Assembly (NCBI GenBank): GCA_014240365.1 | Contig: JAAZXC010000016.1 | Coordinates: forward strand, 1-32,623 | DNA length: 32,623 nucleotides | DNA from: Acidimicrobiales bacterium | GTDB taxonomy: Bacteria > Actinomycetota > Acidimicrobiia > Acidimicrobiales > MedAcidi-G1 | Reading direction: 5' to 3' | Shown here: positions 18,994 through 24,926 of the stretch, piece by piece | How positions within the stretch are numbered: the first letter of the stretch is position 1 | Layout of the letters: every line of letters begins with the position of its first letter | Position numbers and translations under genes: made by a program | Notes under the pieces: generated by a model | Databases searched by the model: none | Told to the model about the DNA's origin: nothing | Seen by the model: the letters and a program-made list of their open reading frames with translations, nothing else

Positions 18994-19611
18994 ATGCGCC
19001 TGCTCCTCCTTCCGTTGCTGGTCCTGGCCGTTGTGGCGACTGCATGTGGGGGCTCCGACGACGGGCCGGTAGTCGTGCAGACGACCACCACCGGAATGTT
19101 CGTCACGACCACGGCCGCCCCGTCGGACTACTCGCCTGCGACCACAACCACGCCGAGCGTCGCCACGACGGTGGTAGCAACGGCCACCACGACTGCTCCT
19201 CCGGCGACCACCACCGCTGCCGTGATGGACGTTCCGGAGTCCGTGACCGTCGAGAAGGGCGATTCGCTCTCCAAGATCGCGAAGCGGTACGGCACGACCG
19301 TCGATGCCCTGGTCAGGATCAACGGGCTCTGTGACGCCAACCAGATCTTCGTGGGCCAGGTGGTCCTGCTGGAGGATCCGGAGGCCGAAGCCGAAGCCGA
19401 GGCCGCAGAGGACCAGGCCGAGACTGCCATCGTGACGGTCCAGCCGGGCGATTCGCTCTCCAAGATCGCCAAGCGCAACGACACGACCGTCGAGGAGCTG
19501 ATGGCCCTCAACAGCATCGACGATCCCAACCTCCTCTTCGTGGGCCAGGAACTCCTCGTGGATGCGGCCGCCTCGGCCGACGAGGAGCCCGAGGAGAACC
19601 CGAACTGCTGA
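18994..19611 (+). CDS. lipoprotein with two LysM domains
   Basis: This 205-residue exported protein has a hydrophobic signal (residues 1-17) ending in a lipobox-like VATAC with C18 as the likely lipidated residue. A Thr/Ala/Pro-rich linker (about 28-78) suited to spanning the envelope follows. Two LysM domains lie at about 83-127 and 145-190, separated by an acidic Ala/Glu stretch, and the tail is acidic. Both LysM copies contain GDSLSKIAKR, encoded by an identical 24-base stretch. LysM binds peptidoglycan, so this is a cell-wall-binding lipoprotein without a visible catalytic domain. Confidence 0.88.
   Translation: MRLLLLPLLVLAVVATACGGSDDGPVVVQTTTTGMFVTTTAAPSDYSPATTTTPSVATTVVATATTTAPPATTTAAVMDVPESVTVEKGDSLSKIAKRYGTTVDALVRINGLCDANQIFVGQVVLLEDPEAEAEAEAAEDQAETAIVTVQPGDSLSKIAKRNDTTVEELMALNSIDDPNLLFVGQELLVDAAASADEEPEENPNC
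19257..19469 (+). repeat. direct repeat within the LysM gene
   Basis: A 24-base segment at 19257-19280 recurs exactly at 19446-19469, each encoding the start of one LysM domain (GDSLSKI). The bases around the copies diverge, fitting a fairly recent domain duplication or gene conversion inside the lipoprotein gene. Confidence 0.8.
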
Positions 19612-19681
19612 CGGCCGGTACGTCCGCAGGCAGTTCACCCACCTGACCGTCCTGCGTCCCGCCGGGTCTACGATCCGCAAC

Positions 19682-20950
19682 ATGGCACCCAGGCTCGAGG
19701 CACGAGACGAGGCCCGGCTGGCGGGAGCTGAGGGCCCGGCGCAGCAGATGGCGACCCGGGTGGTCACCCGACTGGCCGCCGCCATGGGTGCCGAAGAGCT
19801 CATCGACATCACCGGGGCCCACATCGACTCCTGCCTCTACCACGGTCAGGCCGTCCTCGACTTCGCCGACCGCCTGGCTGACGACGGAGCGCGGGTCGTG
19901 GTGCCCACCACGCTGAACGTCTCGTCCCTGGACCTGCTTCACCCGGAGCACGCCAGGGGTGACCCCGGGGAGGCCCGTGCGTCACGAAGGCTCATGGAGC
20001 GCTTCGAGGAGATGGGCTGTCGGCCGACCTGGACCTGTGCCCCGTACCAGTTGGAGGTCCGGCCGCAGTTCGGTGAGCAGATCGCCTGGGCGGAGTCCAA
20101 CGCCATCGTGTTCGCCAACTCGGTGCTGGGTGCACGGACGAATCGCTACGGCGACTTCGCTGACATCTGCTGCGCCGTCACCGGGCGGGCACCTGCCGCC
20201 GGGTTGCACCTGGACGAGCATCGCAGGGCCACCGTCGTCATCAGGCTCGACGGTGTCTCCGCCGGACTGATGGAGCGTGACGTCTTCTATCCGGTGCTCG
20301 GAGGCCTCCTTGGTGGGCTGGTAGGCAAAGCCGTACCGGTCATCAGCGGTCTGGCGCCCGGCGTGTCAGAGGATCGCCTCAAGGCGCTGGGGGCGGCGTC
20401 GGCATCAACCGGCTCTGTCGGCATGTTCCACATGGTCGGGAGCACACCCGAGGCTCCGACCCTGGAAGCAGCGCTGGCCGGCCACCGGCCCGTCGAGGAG
20501 GTCACTGTCACGGCAGCGGACCTACGTGGCGCACGGGATCGACTCTCCACGACTACCAGTGACGACCTCCGGACCGTGAGCCTCGGTACACCGCACTACT
20601 CGGTTTCCGAGATCGGACGGCTCGTCGAGCTGCTTGGTGGTCGGCGGGTCGGCGACGGCGTTGCGTTCTTCGTATCCACGGGACGTGACGTACTCCACGA
20701 GGTGGAGTTGAGGGGCTGGGCGGGCCGACTTGCCGATGCCGGGGTGACGATGGTGACCGACACCTGCACCTACTTCACCCCGATAATCCAGGACCGCACC
20801 GGCACCTCGATGACCGATTCGGCCAAGTGGGCCTACTACGCCCCCGGAAACCTCGGCCTCGAGGTCGTCTTCGGGAGCACCGAGGACTGCGTGGAATCGG
20901 CGATCCTCGGCCGGGTGGTTCGTGACGAGGGGATCTGGGCCGATGTCTGA
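19682..20950 (+). CDS. aconitase X (AcnX) large/catalytic subunit
   Basis: This 422-residue protein of the AcnX family is recognised by ITGAHIDSCLYHG (residues 43-55), CAPYQ with C119, AESNAIVFANSVLGARTNRYGDFADICCAVTGRAP (137-171) and DTCTYF near the C-terminus. Conserved cysteines in these places bind the iron centre in characterised members. I start at ATG 19682, as the longer frame upstream runs into the LysM gene. AcnX enzymes include cis-3-hydroxy-L-proline dehydratase in bacteria and phosphomevalonate dehydratase in archaea; neither substrate is supported by neighbours here. The stop overlaps the small subunit start (ATGTCTGA). Confidence 0.88.
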   Translation: MAPRLEARDEARLAGAEGPAQQMATRVVTRLAAAMGAEELIDITGAHIDSCLYHGQAVLDFADRLADDGARVVVPTTLNVSSLDLLHPEHARGDPGEARASRRLMERFEEMGCRPTWTCAPYQLEVRPQFGEQIAWAESNAIVFANSVLGARTNRYGDFADICCAVTGRAPAAGLHLDEHRRATVVIRLDGVSAGLMERDVFYPVLGGLLGGLVGKAVPVISGLAPGVSEDRLKALGAASASTGSVGMFHMVGSTPEAPTLEAALAGHRPVEEVTVTAADLRGARDRLSTTTSDDLRTVSLGTPHYSVSEIGRLVELLGGRRVGDGVAFFVSTGRDVLHEVELRGWAGRLADAGVTMVTDTCTYFTPIIQDRTGTSMTDSAKWAYYAPGNLGLEVVFGSTEDCVESAILGRVVRDEGIWADV

Positions 20951-21383
20951 GGCGGGCCCGACGCCGTTGGTGCTGGTGGCTGGCACCGCCATCGGGAAGG
21001 TCCTTCGCCTCGATGAGCCCCTCAGCTTCTGGGGAGGTGTGGAGACGCTGCAGGGTCGGATCATCGACCAGCGCCACCCCCAGGTCGGCGAGATCGTCGC
21101 GGGTCGCATCCTGGTCATGCCGTTCGGTCGGGGGTCCAGCTCCGGCAGCAGCGTCATCTGCGAGGCGGTCCGGGCGGGGACCGCTCCAGCTGCCATCCTG
21201 ATGGCCGAACGCGACGACATCATCGCCCTCGGGGCCATTGCCGCCGACGAGATCTACGGGCTGGTCATGCCGGTCGTGGTGCTCGCCCCCGACGACCACG
21301 ATGCCCTCCTGGATGGTGCGGCGGTGACCATCGGGATCGACGGCACGGTGAGCGTGCCAGACCGCGACACCGGCATCGTCTGA
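20943..21383 (+). CDS. aconitase X (AcnX) small swivel subunit
   Basis: This 146-residue protein is the swivel domain partner of the preceding gene, which it overlaps by eight bases. The signature is GRILVMPFGRGSSSGSSVICEAVRAGTAPAAILMAE at about 57-92, where the Gly/Ser-rich loop helps bind substrate in this family. In many fungi and some bacteria the two parts are fused; here they are separate and clearly co-translated. Substrate is unknown, as for the large subunit. Confidence 0.88.
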   Translation: MSEAGPTPLVLVAGTAIGKVLRLDEPLSFWGGVETLQGRIIDQRHPQVGEIVAGRILVMPFGRGSSSGSSVICEAVRAGTAPAAILMAERDDIIALGAIAADEIYGLVMPVVVLAPDDHDALLDGAAVTIGIDGTVSVPDRDTGIV

Positions 21384-21387
21384 CTGA

Positions 21388-21945
21388 TCAATCCTCCGGG
21401 ATCCACTCCTCGAGGGTGATGCCCAGGCCGTCGGCTATCCGGTTGGCGTAGGCGTAGTAGGCGGTCACCTCGGTGATGTCCAGCACGTCGCGGTCGCTGA
21501 AGCCGGCGACGCGCAGGGCCTCCACGTCGGCCTGTTCCATTTCGCCGGGACTGCGGGTCAACTTCACCGCGTAGGCGATCATCGCCCGACGCTGTGGGGT
21601 CAGGGGAGCGCTCGTCCAGTCGGCCTCGATGGCGGCCAGCAGGTCGTCGTCCTTCAGGAGCTGGCGCAGACCGCGCCGGTGGTGGGTGATTCAGTAGTGG
21701 CAGTGGTTCTCGAGGCTGACCACGAGTGCCACCAGTTCCCGCTCGACCTTGCGCAGGGTGCCGGTTCCTGACATTGCCGAGCGGTACAGCCCCTCGTGGG
21801 CGGCCAACCCGGCGGGGTTCAGCGAATGGACGGCCATGATCCGGTCAACCCGCCCGAAGGAGGCGTCCACCACCCGGCCGTAGAGGTCGCCGAGACCGTC
21901 GTCTCCAGCCCAGTCGTCGTCGGGAACGGTACGGATCCATGCCAT
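21388..21945 (-). CDS. AhpD/carboxymuconolactone-decarboxylase-family selenoprotein (CxxU), read through TGA
   Basis: The gene encodes 185 residues if the in-frame TGA at 21691-21693 is read as selenocysteine. The frame is continuous on both sides. Residues 1-84 (MAWIRTVPDDDW to HCHY) and 86-185 (ITHHRRGL to EEWIPED) are together a complete peroxidase-related CMD-family protein, whose relatives have CxxC here. The motif becomes C82-H-Y-U85. E70 and H89 reproduce the spacing of the AhpD relay (E118, C130, C133, H137), putting Sec at the C133 position. A SECIS-like hairpin follows directly. The expected role is thiol/selenol-dependent peroxide reduction. It lies 49 bases downstream of the sulfotransferase-like gene, in a likely operon with the aminotransferase. 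The alternatives, a sequencing error or a nonsense mutation of TGC/TGT, are less likely given the hairpin. Confidence 0.82.
21661..21693 (-). promoter_or_regulatory. UGA selenocysteine codon with candidate bacterial SECIS hairpin
   Basis: On the minus strand the TGA (21693-21691) is followed by 18 bases (21690-21673), then loop GGTCT (21672-21668). The loop is closed by a perfect five-base-pair stem GGCGC (21677-21673) and GCGCC (21667-21663), with one more C-G pair beyond a mismatch. A short upper stem with a G-starting apical loop 16-37 nt after UGA is the known requirement for a bacterial SECIS. From memory, E. coli fdhF has the same GGUCU loop at the same 18-nt distance. The fdhF bulged U is not obvious here. 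Confidence 0.78.
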
Positions 21946-21994: not shown

Positions 21995-22714
21995 TCAGGC
22001 GTCGAGGGTGAACTCGCTGAGGCGGTCGTACAGCGGCCTCGCCTCGGCGACCACTGAAGCCAGGTGCGCCGGTGCGGGTTCGGTGCTGGGCCGGCTGGCA
22101 GCGAAGCCTGTCGAGCGATGCGTGCTGGAGTACCAGTGTTCGGCCCAGACGCCGTCCTCGGGCTTGGGTCCGTCGGGCCACGAAAGCATCCCGGTGTCGA
22201 ACTCGAGGCCCAGACGGCCGCACAGAGTTCGCAGGGTGGCCTCGGGGGCGGCCAGCAGTGCGGCGGAGTCGATCACGATGGGATCACCGCCGCCGGCCAG
22301 GATCGACTCCAGGAGCTCCACCTGTATCGACAGGCCGGTGTCGGCAACCTTCACGTCCGGCACGTTCTTGGCGAACGACGTGATGACCCTCTCCGGGTCC
22401 CGGATCAGGAGCAGGTTCCGGCATTGTCCGAGGAAGGAGCGGTCCAGTTGCACGAAGTGCTGGGCCATCTGCTTGAAGAACACGACCGGTGTGGGGTGTT
22501 CGCCGAGGATCAGGTCACGGACGACCGCCTCGCCGTCCGGGTCCTGGCTGGCCAGCACCTCGTCACGGCCGGGGTGCTCTCGTCCGGTGACCCGCAGGTA
22601 GTGCGCGTAGATCGGCTCGTCGAAGACCGTGGTGTCGCTCCGCTGCCGGAAGGCGTACATGAACGACGTGGAGATGTTCCGGGGGCCGGACCAGCAGTTG
22701 ATGCGCAGTGTCAT
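21995..22714 (-). CDS. sulfotransferase-family P-loop protein
   Basis: The 239-residue protein carries an N-terminal P-loop-like SGPRNIST at residues 9-16, corresponding to the PAPS 5'-phosphosulfate loop, and LLLIRDPERVITSF, corresponding to the 3'-phosphate-binding segment. This compact family is often encoded beside or fused to class IV aminotransferases, and the aminotransferase gene lies 11 bases upstream here. Whether it transfers sulfate or performs another nucleotide-dependent step is not known. It is followed by the selenoprotein gene on the same strand. Confidence 0.75.
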   Translation of the reverse strand: MTLRINCWSGPRNISTSFMYAFRQRSDTTVFDEPIYAHYLRVTGREHPGRDEVLASQDPDGEAVVRDLILGEHPTPVVFFKQMAQHFVQLDRSFLGQCRNLLLIRDPERVITSFAKNVPDVKVADTGLSIQVELLESILAGGGDPIVIDSAALLAAPEATLRTLCGRLGLEFDTGMLSWPDGPKPEDGVWAEHWYSSTHRSTGFAASRPSTEPAPAHLASVVAEARPLYDRLSEFTLDA

Positions 22715-22725
22715 GTGTCCGGCGC

Positions 22726-23643
22726 TCAGTCGCCGGAGACGTCGGCCTCAACGGCCGCGCGGTAGAGCTCCTGGAGCCTTGCGGTCATCGGGCCCGGTCG
22801 GCCATCGCCGATGGTACGACCGTCGATCTCGACGACCGGGGTGAGGCCACCGAAGGTGCCGGTCACGAACGCCTCCTCGGCCGAGTAGACGTCGGTCAGG
22901 GAGAAGGGCTTCTGGTGGGCGGTGAGGCCGGCGAGCGGCGCCACCTCCAGCACCAACTGGCGTGTGATGCCGTTCAGGTTGTACTGACCGGTCGAGGTCC
23001 ACACCCCGCCCTCACGAACCACGAAGAAGTTCGTGGCGTTGCAGGTGGCGACCGCACCGGTGGGATCGAGCATGAGCGCCTCGTCGGCCCCGGCCTTCAC
23101 GGCCTGTATGAGGGCGATGACCTCGTGCAGTTTGGAGTGGCAGTTGAGGCGCTGGTCAAGCGTGTCGGGTGCCGGTCGGCGCACCGTCGTCGTGAACAGG
23201 GTTATGCCGGCCGCAGCCACGGCCGGGTCGGCGGCCTTGTGCTCGGCGATGATCACCATGTTGGGGCCGCCCACGACGTTGGATGGATGCTGCGAGGGGG
23301 TCTTCTTGTCTCCCCGGGTGATCATGAGCCGGGCATGCACGTCGTCGTGCATGTCGTTGTGGCGGACGGTGGAGTACAGCGCCCCGGCCACCTCGTCGCG
23401 GGTCATGCCGATGTCCAGGTCAATGGCCGCTGCACCGGCGAACAGGCGGTCCAGGTGCCTGTCCAGGAAGGCGAAGCGTCCATGGTGCAGGCGCAGCCCC
23501 TCCCAGATTCCGTCGCCCACCAGGAAGCCACTGTCAAATACCGAGATCCTGGCCTCGTGGCGTGGGAAGAACTCGTCGTTGATGAAGATCTCGACCGACT
23601 CGTTGCGTTCGTCGGCGAGGGCCTGATGGGTGCTGTGTGGCAT
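22726..23643 (-). CDS. class IV (branched-chain/D-amino-acid type) aminotransferase
   Basis: This 305-residue PLP fold-type IV protein starts at ATG 23641-23643. It shows SVFDSGFLVGDGIWEGLRLHHG (34-55), LDRHLDRLF (60-68), PLP lysine K171 in LNCHSKLH, and CNATNFFVVREG (201-212). The general layout matches branched-chain amino acid aminotransferases and D-amino acid aminotransferases. The Tyr usually close after the lysine is not evident, so the exact substrate is open. It is divergent from a LIV-type amino acid transporter, which favours a branched-chain amino acid role. It heads a minus-strand operon with the sulfotransferase-like and selenoprotein genes. Confidence 0.87.
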   Translation of the reverse strand: MPHSTHQALADERNESVEIFINDEFFPRHEARISVFDSGFLVGDGIWEGLRLHHGRFAFLDRHLDRLFAGAAAIDLDIGMTRDEVAGALYSTVRHNDMHDDVHARLMITRGDKKTPSQHPSNVVGGPNMVIIAEHKAADPAVAAAGITLFTTTVRRPAPDTLDQRLNCHSKLHEVIALIQAVKAGADEALMLDPTGAVATCNATNFFVVREGGVWTSTGQYNLNGITRQLVLEVAPLAGLTAHQKPFSLTDVYSAEEAFVTGTFGGLTPVVEIDGRTIGDGRPGPMTARLQELYRAAVEADVSGD

Positions 23644-23716
23644 GACGGCGAGCGTACCGACGGGGACGGGGCCTGTTGGCGCCTCCGGAAAGGACGGGGA
23701 AAACAGGGCGGTATTG

Positions 23717-23730
23717 GTGACGTAGGTCAC
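23717..23730. promoter_or_regulatory. CRP/FNR-like palindrome between aminotransferase and liv operon
   Basis: GTGA-CGTAGG-TCAC is a perfect inverted repeat with six central bases, the core of the CRP/FNR-family consensus TGTGA-N6-TCACA. It sits in the 152-base divergent gap, 65 bases upstream of the livH start and 73 bases upstream of the aminotransferase start. It could govern both directions. The regulator is not in the window; function is inference. Confidence 0.4.
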
Positions 23731-23795
23731 GCATGTGCGGCGGGGGCCGGATATCGTCCCGTCTGCCCACTGCCGATGACTCCAACGGAGCGCAT

Positions 23796-24926
23796 GTGAC
23801 AACCCACGCAGTCTCGACTAAGCCCGCGAAGCGCGTAGTGGCCGTCGACCGCTTCCTGACCTTTATCCGGATCTTCCTGGTCACGATGATCGTGATCGGG
23901 CTACTGGCCTTCATCTGGCAGCAGATCGATGCCGACAACGTGTTCGCCCGGTGGCGCAACCCGGGCGCCCGGGGCCTCACTGGCGACCAGTTCAAGGGCC
24001 TGCTCATCTCGGGCCTCTCGCAGGGGTCCATGTACGGCCTCATCGCCCTTGGCTACTCGATGGTCTACGGCGTCCTCGGGTTCATCAACTTCGCACACGG
24101 CGAGGTGTTCATGGTCGGTGCCATGACGGGGTTCATCGCCTCGGACAAGTTCGCTGCGAACGGGCTGTGGGAGTCCAACTTCCTTCTCTGCCTGGCACTG
24201 ATCATGCTCATGGCGATCTTCTTCTCGACCTTCACGGCGATCCTCATGGAACGCGTTGCCTATCGGGCGCTGCGGAATTCGCCGCGACTCATCCCGTTGA
24301 TCACCTCGATCGGCGTGTCATTCTTCATCCAGAACCTTGTGCTGGGCCTGTTCGGGCCGGCCACCAAGAGCTACCCACGCCTTCCCGAGTGGCTGGCCGA
24401 CCAGCGGTCCATCCTGACCTTCGAGATCGCCGGCACCCGGATCCTCGTGCTGGTGGTCGCCGCTGCATCGATGACGGGCCTCTGGTACATCGTCGAGCGC
24501 ACCAAGACCGGCAAGGCAATGCGAGCCGTGGCCGAGGACAAGGAGATCGCCTCGCTCATGGGGATCGACGTGAACCGGACCATCGTCACCACGTTCGCTG
24601 TCGGTGGGGCCATGGCTGGCGTGGGCGGGATCCTCTGGGGTCTCATGTTCCGGTCGGTCACCCACATGACGGGCTTCCTGCCCGGCGTGAAGGCGTTCAC
24701 CGCCGCGGTGGTCGGTGGCATTGGCAACCTCGGCGGTGCCATGGCCGGCGGCATCTCGCTGGGTTCCGCTGAATCGCTCGCCCCGCTTCTCATCCTCGAA
24801 CCCCTCGGGGTGCCGGGCGTGTCGCAGCTCAAGGACGCCGTGGCGTTCACGGTCCTCGTCCTCGTGCTCCTGTTCAAGCCGACCGGGCTCTTCGGAGAGC
24901 GGCTCTCAGCGGAGGATCGGGCATGA
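23796..24926 (+). CDS. livH: LIV-type ABC transporter permease LivH
   Basis: This 376-residue membrane permease starts at GTG 23796, with GGAG at 23787-23790. The LivH core begins near residue 70 (GLLISGLSQGSMYGLIALGYSMVYGVLGFINFAHGEVFM) and includes the cytoplasmic EAA-like region RAVAEDKEIASLMGIDVNRTI. Around 60 residues precede the core and hold an extra helix (about 21-42), an extension not in the classical protein. It overlaps livM by ATGA. With livM, livG and livF it imports branched-chain amino acids or related amides; no periplasmic binding protein is encoded in the window. Confidence 0.93.
   Translation: MTTHAVSTKPAKRVVAVDRFLTFIRIFLVTMIVIGLLAFIWQQIDADNVFARWRNPGARGLTGDQFKGLLISGLSQGSMYGLIALGYSMVYGVLGFINFAHGEVFMVGAMTGFIASDKFAANGLWESNFLLCLALIMLMAIFFSTFTAILMERVAYRALRNSPRLIPLITSIGVSFFIQNLVLGLFGPATKSYPRLPEWLADQRSILTFEIAGTRILVLVVAAASMTGLWYIVERTKTGKAMRAVAEDKEIASLMGIDVNRTIVTTFAVGGAMAGVGGILWGLMFRSVTHMTGFLPGVKAFTAAVVGGIGNLGGAMAGGISLGSAESLAPLLILEPLGVPGVSQLKDAVAFTVLVLVLLFKPTGLFGERLSAEDRA

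Follow-up and report, generated by a model that had tools for sequence, protein, structure and literature searches.

AhpD-like selenoproteins have been on record since 2005, when a survey of the Sargasso Sea listed an AhpD-like protein of COG2128 with a CXXU motif, represented by 27 sequences, among its new selenoprotein families (PMC1088965). Subsequently, a 2006 survey reported two AhpD-like selenoproteins in genomes (PMC1794560) and the GOS survey counted 299 sequences of AhpD-like 1, assigned to COG2128 with CxxU (PMC2398784). The AhpD-like selenoprotein is also entered under COG2128 in one review (PMC9312934), and a 2026 review tabulates the CxxU form under TIGR01926 (PMC13188914). A downstream bacterial SECIS is reported for this protein (PMC1088965, PMC2398784, PMC13188914), and the portions of these sources that describe it name no host lineage. 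Among Cys-containing relatives, PA0269 has a five-residue relay of Glu36, Cys48, Tyr50, Cys51 and His55 with a C-x-Y-C motif, and Mycobacterium tuberculosis AhpD has the same spacing with His in place of Tyr (PMC3141380). A further Sec-associated type is the NF041238 CFYUT (seleno)protein, the 'hypothetical protein 1' of the Sargasso Sea, which has an AhpD-type core and C-x-Y-U.

An interrupted reading frame of the TIGR01926 family

We analysed a 32,623-nt contig of an Acidimicrobiales bacterium, referred to as the window, which carries the following features.

21388-21945, minus strand: gene of an AhpD-like (TIGR01926) protein, very probably a selenoprotein; 185 codons plus terminal TGA
21691-21693, minus strand: in-frame TGA, codon 85, very probably read as selenocysteine
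21736-21738, minus strand: codon of E70 (AhpD Glu118 position), invariant in 56/56 loci, spacing as in PA0269 and AhpD
21700-21702, minus strand: codon of C82, partner thiol (AhpD Cys130 position)
21679-21681, minus strand: codon of H89 (AhpD His137 position), invariant in 56/56 loci, spacing as in PA0269 and AhpD

The frame runs on the minus strand from an ATG at 21945 to a terminal TGA at 21390-21388, and its single interruption over 185 residues is the TGA at the second redox position of C82-H-Y-U85, so that the frame is open on both sides of one TGA, as the original prediction had it. A standard gene caller would split this gene in two. That both halves belong to one family member, also part of that prediction, is borne out by two profile matches that span the TGA: Pfam CMD matches residues 51-102 of the read-through product (8.3e-14), and NCBIfam TIGR01926 (peroxidase-related enzyme), scored with Cys substituted at both residue 85 and the terminal stop, matches residues 28-176 with 140.2 bits (6e-41; cut-off 81.8). 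By this curated cut-off the protein is a member of TIGR01926/COG2128, and it is the only match over the cut-off in its genome, where two others score under it. It falls outside NF041238 (AhpD_rel_CFYUT), against which it scores 45 bits with a cut-off of 175; proteins of that family have about 350 residues and share with it the AhpD-type core and C-x-Y-U, and one copy is encoded in the same genome.

The protein contains the C-x-x-C/U motif together with the relay Glu and His (E70, C82, Y84, U85 and H89). Counted from E70, C82 lies at +12, U85 at +15 and H89 at +19 residues. PA0269 is spaced identically (E +12 C +2 Y +1 U +4 H), with Cys where the window protein has Sec, and the arrangement also fits the proton relay of M. 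tuberculosis AhpD, with Tyr for His and Sec for Cys (PMC3141380), confirming the relay geometry originally proposed. AlphaFold2, run on ten sequences, returned a model with pLDDT 80.8 and pTM 0.76, in which the main elements are all helical and C82 directly precedes helix 83-97. The top PDB fold matches of the model were 2pfx (E 7e-10), 3c1l, 6k40 and 2prr, and the leading matches by sequence were the same four structures plus 2oyo. The nearest solved structures both by sequence (1.2e-40 and 6.8e-41) and by fold are 2pfx and 3c1l, peroxidase-related or putative antioxidant proteins with C-x-Y-C, to which the PDB titles assign no reaction. M. tuberculosis AhpD matched the model weakly (Foldseek E 0.08 or more).

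Conservation and distribution of the in-frame TGA

Homologues were sought in 149 related genomes, the window's own among them, and 93 yielded at least one match with E no higher than 0.001. All full-length matches of at least 41% identity, namely 56 loci in 55 genomes that are 41-90% identical to the window copy, have one internal stop, a TGA that occupies codon 85 and directly follows CHY (with an unread base at C82 in one locus). The gene was present in 45 of the 48 genomes of the window's family versus 10 of the 101 other genomes of the order, so that nearly every genome of the family has it, and elsewhere in the order its occurrence is patchy. In genome G040 the Sec gene occurs twice, with almost identical copies (L036 and L050) on separate contigs. 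In G014 and G143 the search found only fragments, 70-73% identical, that do not extend to codon 85. They are C-terminal remnants of the gene, the one in G014 (L088, G014:C86) fused to a luciferase-like monooxygenase gene and the one in G143 (L086, G143:C71) directly behind such a gene; these are either deletion scars or assembly joins. The remaining rows of the search, of at most 40% identity, contained one TGA in 13 cases and a TAG in one. Two of these 13 distant CMD/AhpD-type rows were inspected, L087 and L089, the latter being an NF041238 protein.

A second search, in named genomes that overlap with the 149-genome set, yielded 188 confirmed stretches, and the best 80 of these all carried TGA at codon 85 and the GGTCT loop described below. 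Of the two patterns used, one had Cys as its last residue, at column 85, and would favour Cys forms. Within these best 80 of 188, the top matches, with 90% identical protein, were from an Acidimicrobiia bacterium and an uncultured Acidimicrobiaceae bacterium, and 75 were titled Acidimicrobiia or its groups, or more broadly actinobacteria or Actinomycetes. The other five comprised Candidatus Aldehydirespirator, which belongs to Acidimicrobiia by taxonomy, one Planctomycetaceae and three entries titled plainly 'bacterium'. The original prediction had named TGC or TGT at 21691-21693 in close relatives as an observation that would speak against it; no such codon was seen in either set (TGA in 56/56, and in 80/80 for the best 80 of 188), and no Cys version of the window protein occurred among the close homologues examined. 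A sample of 198 genomes from the phylum yielded matches at 1e-20 or better in 23; besides the window's, ten loci with one TGA turned up, distributed over eight genomes, and three of these loci were 58-68% identical. Three Sec/Cys label changes were required on a tree built from 78 proteins, the deep order of which is unsure owing to long branches.

To place codon 85 in the wider family, the ten best-scoring TGA-free homologues were aligned, with the fragments L086 and L088 excluded and the divergent TGA form L087 (CVYU) set apart. Cys occupied column 85 in nine of the ten and column 82 in eight, and E70 and H89 were each kept in eight; the motif is CLYC in three further TGA-free homologues found in the phylum. 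The TGA thus falls at the second redox Cys, as predicted, and an in-frame TGA aligned with the Cys of homologues is a hallmark of bacterial selenoproteins.

A lone in-frame stop in a draft assembly often means that the gene is a pseudogene or that a sense codon became TGA through a sequencing error. For this gene, such an explanation is exceedingly improbable and was rejected: the same TGA recurs in the 56 loci and in the overlapping set of the best 80 of 188, and dN/dS values of 0.07-0.43, obtained for the window copy versus nine chosen relatives from 65 codons upstream and 91 codons downstream of the TGA, show that purifying selection acts on both halves of the gene. Chance is excluded by the finding that the single internal stop is always TGA and always at the same codon in all 56 loci, which come from 55 of the 149 genomes. 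A genome-wide change of the code, by which TGA would be read as an amino acid other than Sec, was likewise rejected as next to impossible, because TGA is the terminal codon of 18 of 20 hand-picked ORFs of the window, this gene included, which argues against any general reassignment, and because the genome contains Sec machinery. Together with the full sel machinery described below, the conserved TGA and the Cys of nine of the ten TGA-free homologues support the Sec reading of the original prediction, and we infer that Sec is almost certainly inserted at UGA codon 85 in the cell. The original claim of a probable new selenoprotein was overstated as to novelty: the Sec form of COG2128/TIGR01926 was reported in 2005 (PMC1088965), and the window gene is therefore not a new kind of selenoprotein.

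The downstream hairpin and the selenocysteine machinery

Immediately downstream of the in-frame TGA, two features were assigned.

21663-21677, minus strand: predicted bacterial SECIS hairpin; 5-bp stem, GGUCU loop at 21668-21672, TGA-loop gap of 18 nt
21670-21672, minus strand: GGT codon of G92, inside the SECIS loop

The published SECIS model has a loop of 3-9 nt with G in its first two positions, a stem of 4-16 bp, an MFE of at most -7.5 kcal/mol and a distance of 16-37 nt from the UGA (PMC13188914). The window hairpin, which folds at -9.8 kcal/mol, agrees with each of these listed features. Counting the T of TGA as 1, nt 22-26 are GGTCT in 56/56 loci, and E. coli fdhF has GGTCTG at 22-27. 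In the stem formed by 16-21 and 27-32, scored on 49 distinct rows, 90.8% of cells were paired and four of the six pairs showed two-sided changes; the covariation score was 0.155 versus 0.076 in shuffles and was reached by none of 500. This register exceeded all six slid versions of the stem in score and in paired cells; slid stems tied with it in pairs with a two-sided change (four, at +2) and in cells with such a change (ten, at +1). The outermost pair was open in 17 of the 49 distinct rows.

Hairpin stability by itself was uninformative. It was ordinary for the 39-nt hairpin (z -0.63, with 50 of 200 shuffles folding as well), and for the 21-nt hairpin z was -1.89 (12 of 200 shuffles). For a 24-nt segment, 47 of the 56 homologues stayed within the limit of -7.5 kcal/mol and nine folded above it, as did the same segment of fdhF (-5.7 kcal/mol). 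When the window was scanned, a TGA with the same loop register was found just once more, at plus-strand position 19644 and outside the AcnX frame.

The Gly92 codon is GGT in 56/56 loci, versus 79 of the 557 other Gly codons of the same genes. Among more distant TGA forms, GGTCT is kept at the register in L171-L173 and not in L174-L178 or L087. Column 92 holds no Gly in any of the ten aligned TGA-free homologues, nor, on visual inspection, in the six loop-less TGA forms. The invariance of GGT, together with the missing Gly where the loop is missing, seems to imply that the RNA loop dictates Gly92.

The genome itself (2.22 Mb in 192 contigs, 95% complete) encodes a tRNA-Sec that scored 67.5 bits with the Rfam model and was called by ARAGORN as tRNA-SeC with anticodon tca. 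The Rfam model is not specific alone, as a tRNA-Ser of the same genome also passes (47.5 bits). On the tRNA-Sec contig selA and selB adjoin, each over its cut-off, and selD, in the same genome, is over its cut-off too. Of 14 control genomes, five passed the cut-off for tRNA-Sec, one for selA, two for selB and two for selD. The search for selA, selB, selC and selD suggested with the original prediction thus found all four in one genome, a further hallmark of bacterial selenoproteins.

Matches to selA occurred in 104 of the 149 related genomes (101 over the cut-off), in 53 of the 55 genomes with the gene versus 51 of the 94 without it (Fisher p 8e-9, a value that ignores kinship). Of the two gene-bearing genomes that lack a selA match, G026 is 85% and G039 69% complete; a third gene-bearing genome, G116, had a partial match that stayed under the cut-off. 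The original prediction had called Sec use sparsely documented in actinobacteria of this kind. Among the papers listed by a literature search on Sec or selenoproteins in Acidimicrobi-, none was devoted to Sec use of the class, judged by title; among the relatives themselves Sec use is common, going by the selA matches.

Two further genes of this genome contain an in-frame TGA. In selD (L018), one TGA lies near the start, at locus position 1531, in the context SHGAG-U-GCK, which makes SelD a probable selenoprotein in its own right; the 45-nt segment following this TGA folds at -27.2 kcal/mol, a value for folding energy alone. The second AhpD-type gene (L182, G000:C157:6176-7153, minus strand), of the NF041238 CFYUT type and located on a contig other than the window's, also has one in-frame TGA and scores 281.6 bits against NF041238, a model over its cut-off in none of the 14 control genomes. 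Both are probable additional Sec genes.

Proposed chemistry and genomic neighbourhood

From these data we propose that the GGUCU hairpin just downstream of the UGA would direct SelB, which would deliver Sec-tRNA to UGA codon 85, and that the ribosome would continue past it to yield a 185-residue protein of all-helical AhpD-like fold with the motif C82-x-Y-U85. In AhpD, Cys133 is the attacking residue. U85, at this position, would be the selenolate that attacks a hydroperoxide, with E70 and H89 shuttling protons. C82 would serve as the resolving thiol that converts the selenenic acid to a selenenylsulfide, which a cellular thiol reductant would then reduce, so that the protein would work as a selenol-thiol peroxidase or reductase. 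Such peroxide-type, selenol-thiol chemistry is probable, to judge from homology to enzymes that are weakly active or uncharacterised.

Alternatively, Sec may be inserted and the protein, rather than reducing hydroperoxides, may serve as an adaptor, as a thiol or selenol reductant, or in reductive dehalogenation in the manner of Bmp8. This concerns the chemistry only and is compatible with Sec insertion. An adaptor role has a precedent in AhpD, which acts as adaptor for AhpC (PMC3141380), the debrominase Bmp8 is a structural relative, and the neighbouring AcnX, sulfotransferase and aminotransferase genes do not suggest peroxide defence. On the other hand, the E/C/Y/U/H spacing is kept from PA0269, which has weak peroxidase activity (PMC3141380), and the Bmp8 chains are far less similar, with 15-18% identity to the window protein. 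Roles of this kind are thus conceivable but on the unlikely side, and peroxide-type chemistry is the reading we prefer.

The neighbours in question are the following, with counts obtained by tblastn of seven window neighbours versus 110 loci, the window's own included, among which some contigs are present twice and flank lengths differ.

21995-22714, minus strand: sulfotransferase domain protein, upstream neighbour, beside the gene in 21/110 loci
22726-23802, minus strand: class IV aminotransferase, further upstream, beside the gene in 21/110 loci
19562-21383, plus strand: Aconitase X (AcnX) large and small subunit genes, near the gene in 40/110 loci

The sulfotransferase gene, 49 bp away, possibly belongs to the same operon as the selenoprotein gene. 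The AcnX genes converge on the latter, and their nearest NCBIfam model is cis-3-hydroxy-L-proline dehydratase, with a score under the cut-off. In 12 chosen loci the largest shared neighbour groups hold four of the 12, and we therefore claim no functional link from the neighbourhood. When plasmids were searched with the 2-kb region around the gene, two records came up, and their short matches fall within the AcnX small subunit.

On a bolder view, the odds of which are somewhat short of even, the protein would be a stable selenoenzyme, obligate throughout the family and patchy in the rest of the order, that acts on a substrate of its own. Sporadic Sec/Cys exchange would then not apply, and Gly92 and GGT-CTG would be held in place by the RNA loop and not by the enzyme. 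The biology of the AhpD-like Sec gene is not of a new kind. What is added here is its near-universal presence in the window's family and a glycine that the RNA apparently imposes. Where the surveys describe the CxxU protein with its SECIS and name no host in those portions, the window gene comes with Sec machinery in its genome and occurs in nearly all genomes of one family. Altogether, a selenoprotein family known from metagenomes of marine origin is thereby given a lineage, together with a SECIS and Sec machinery.
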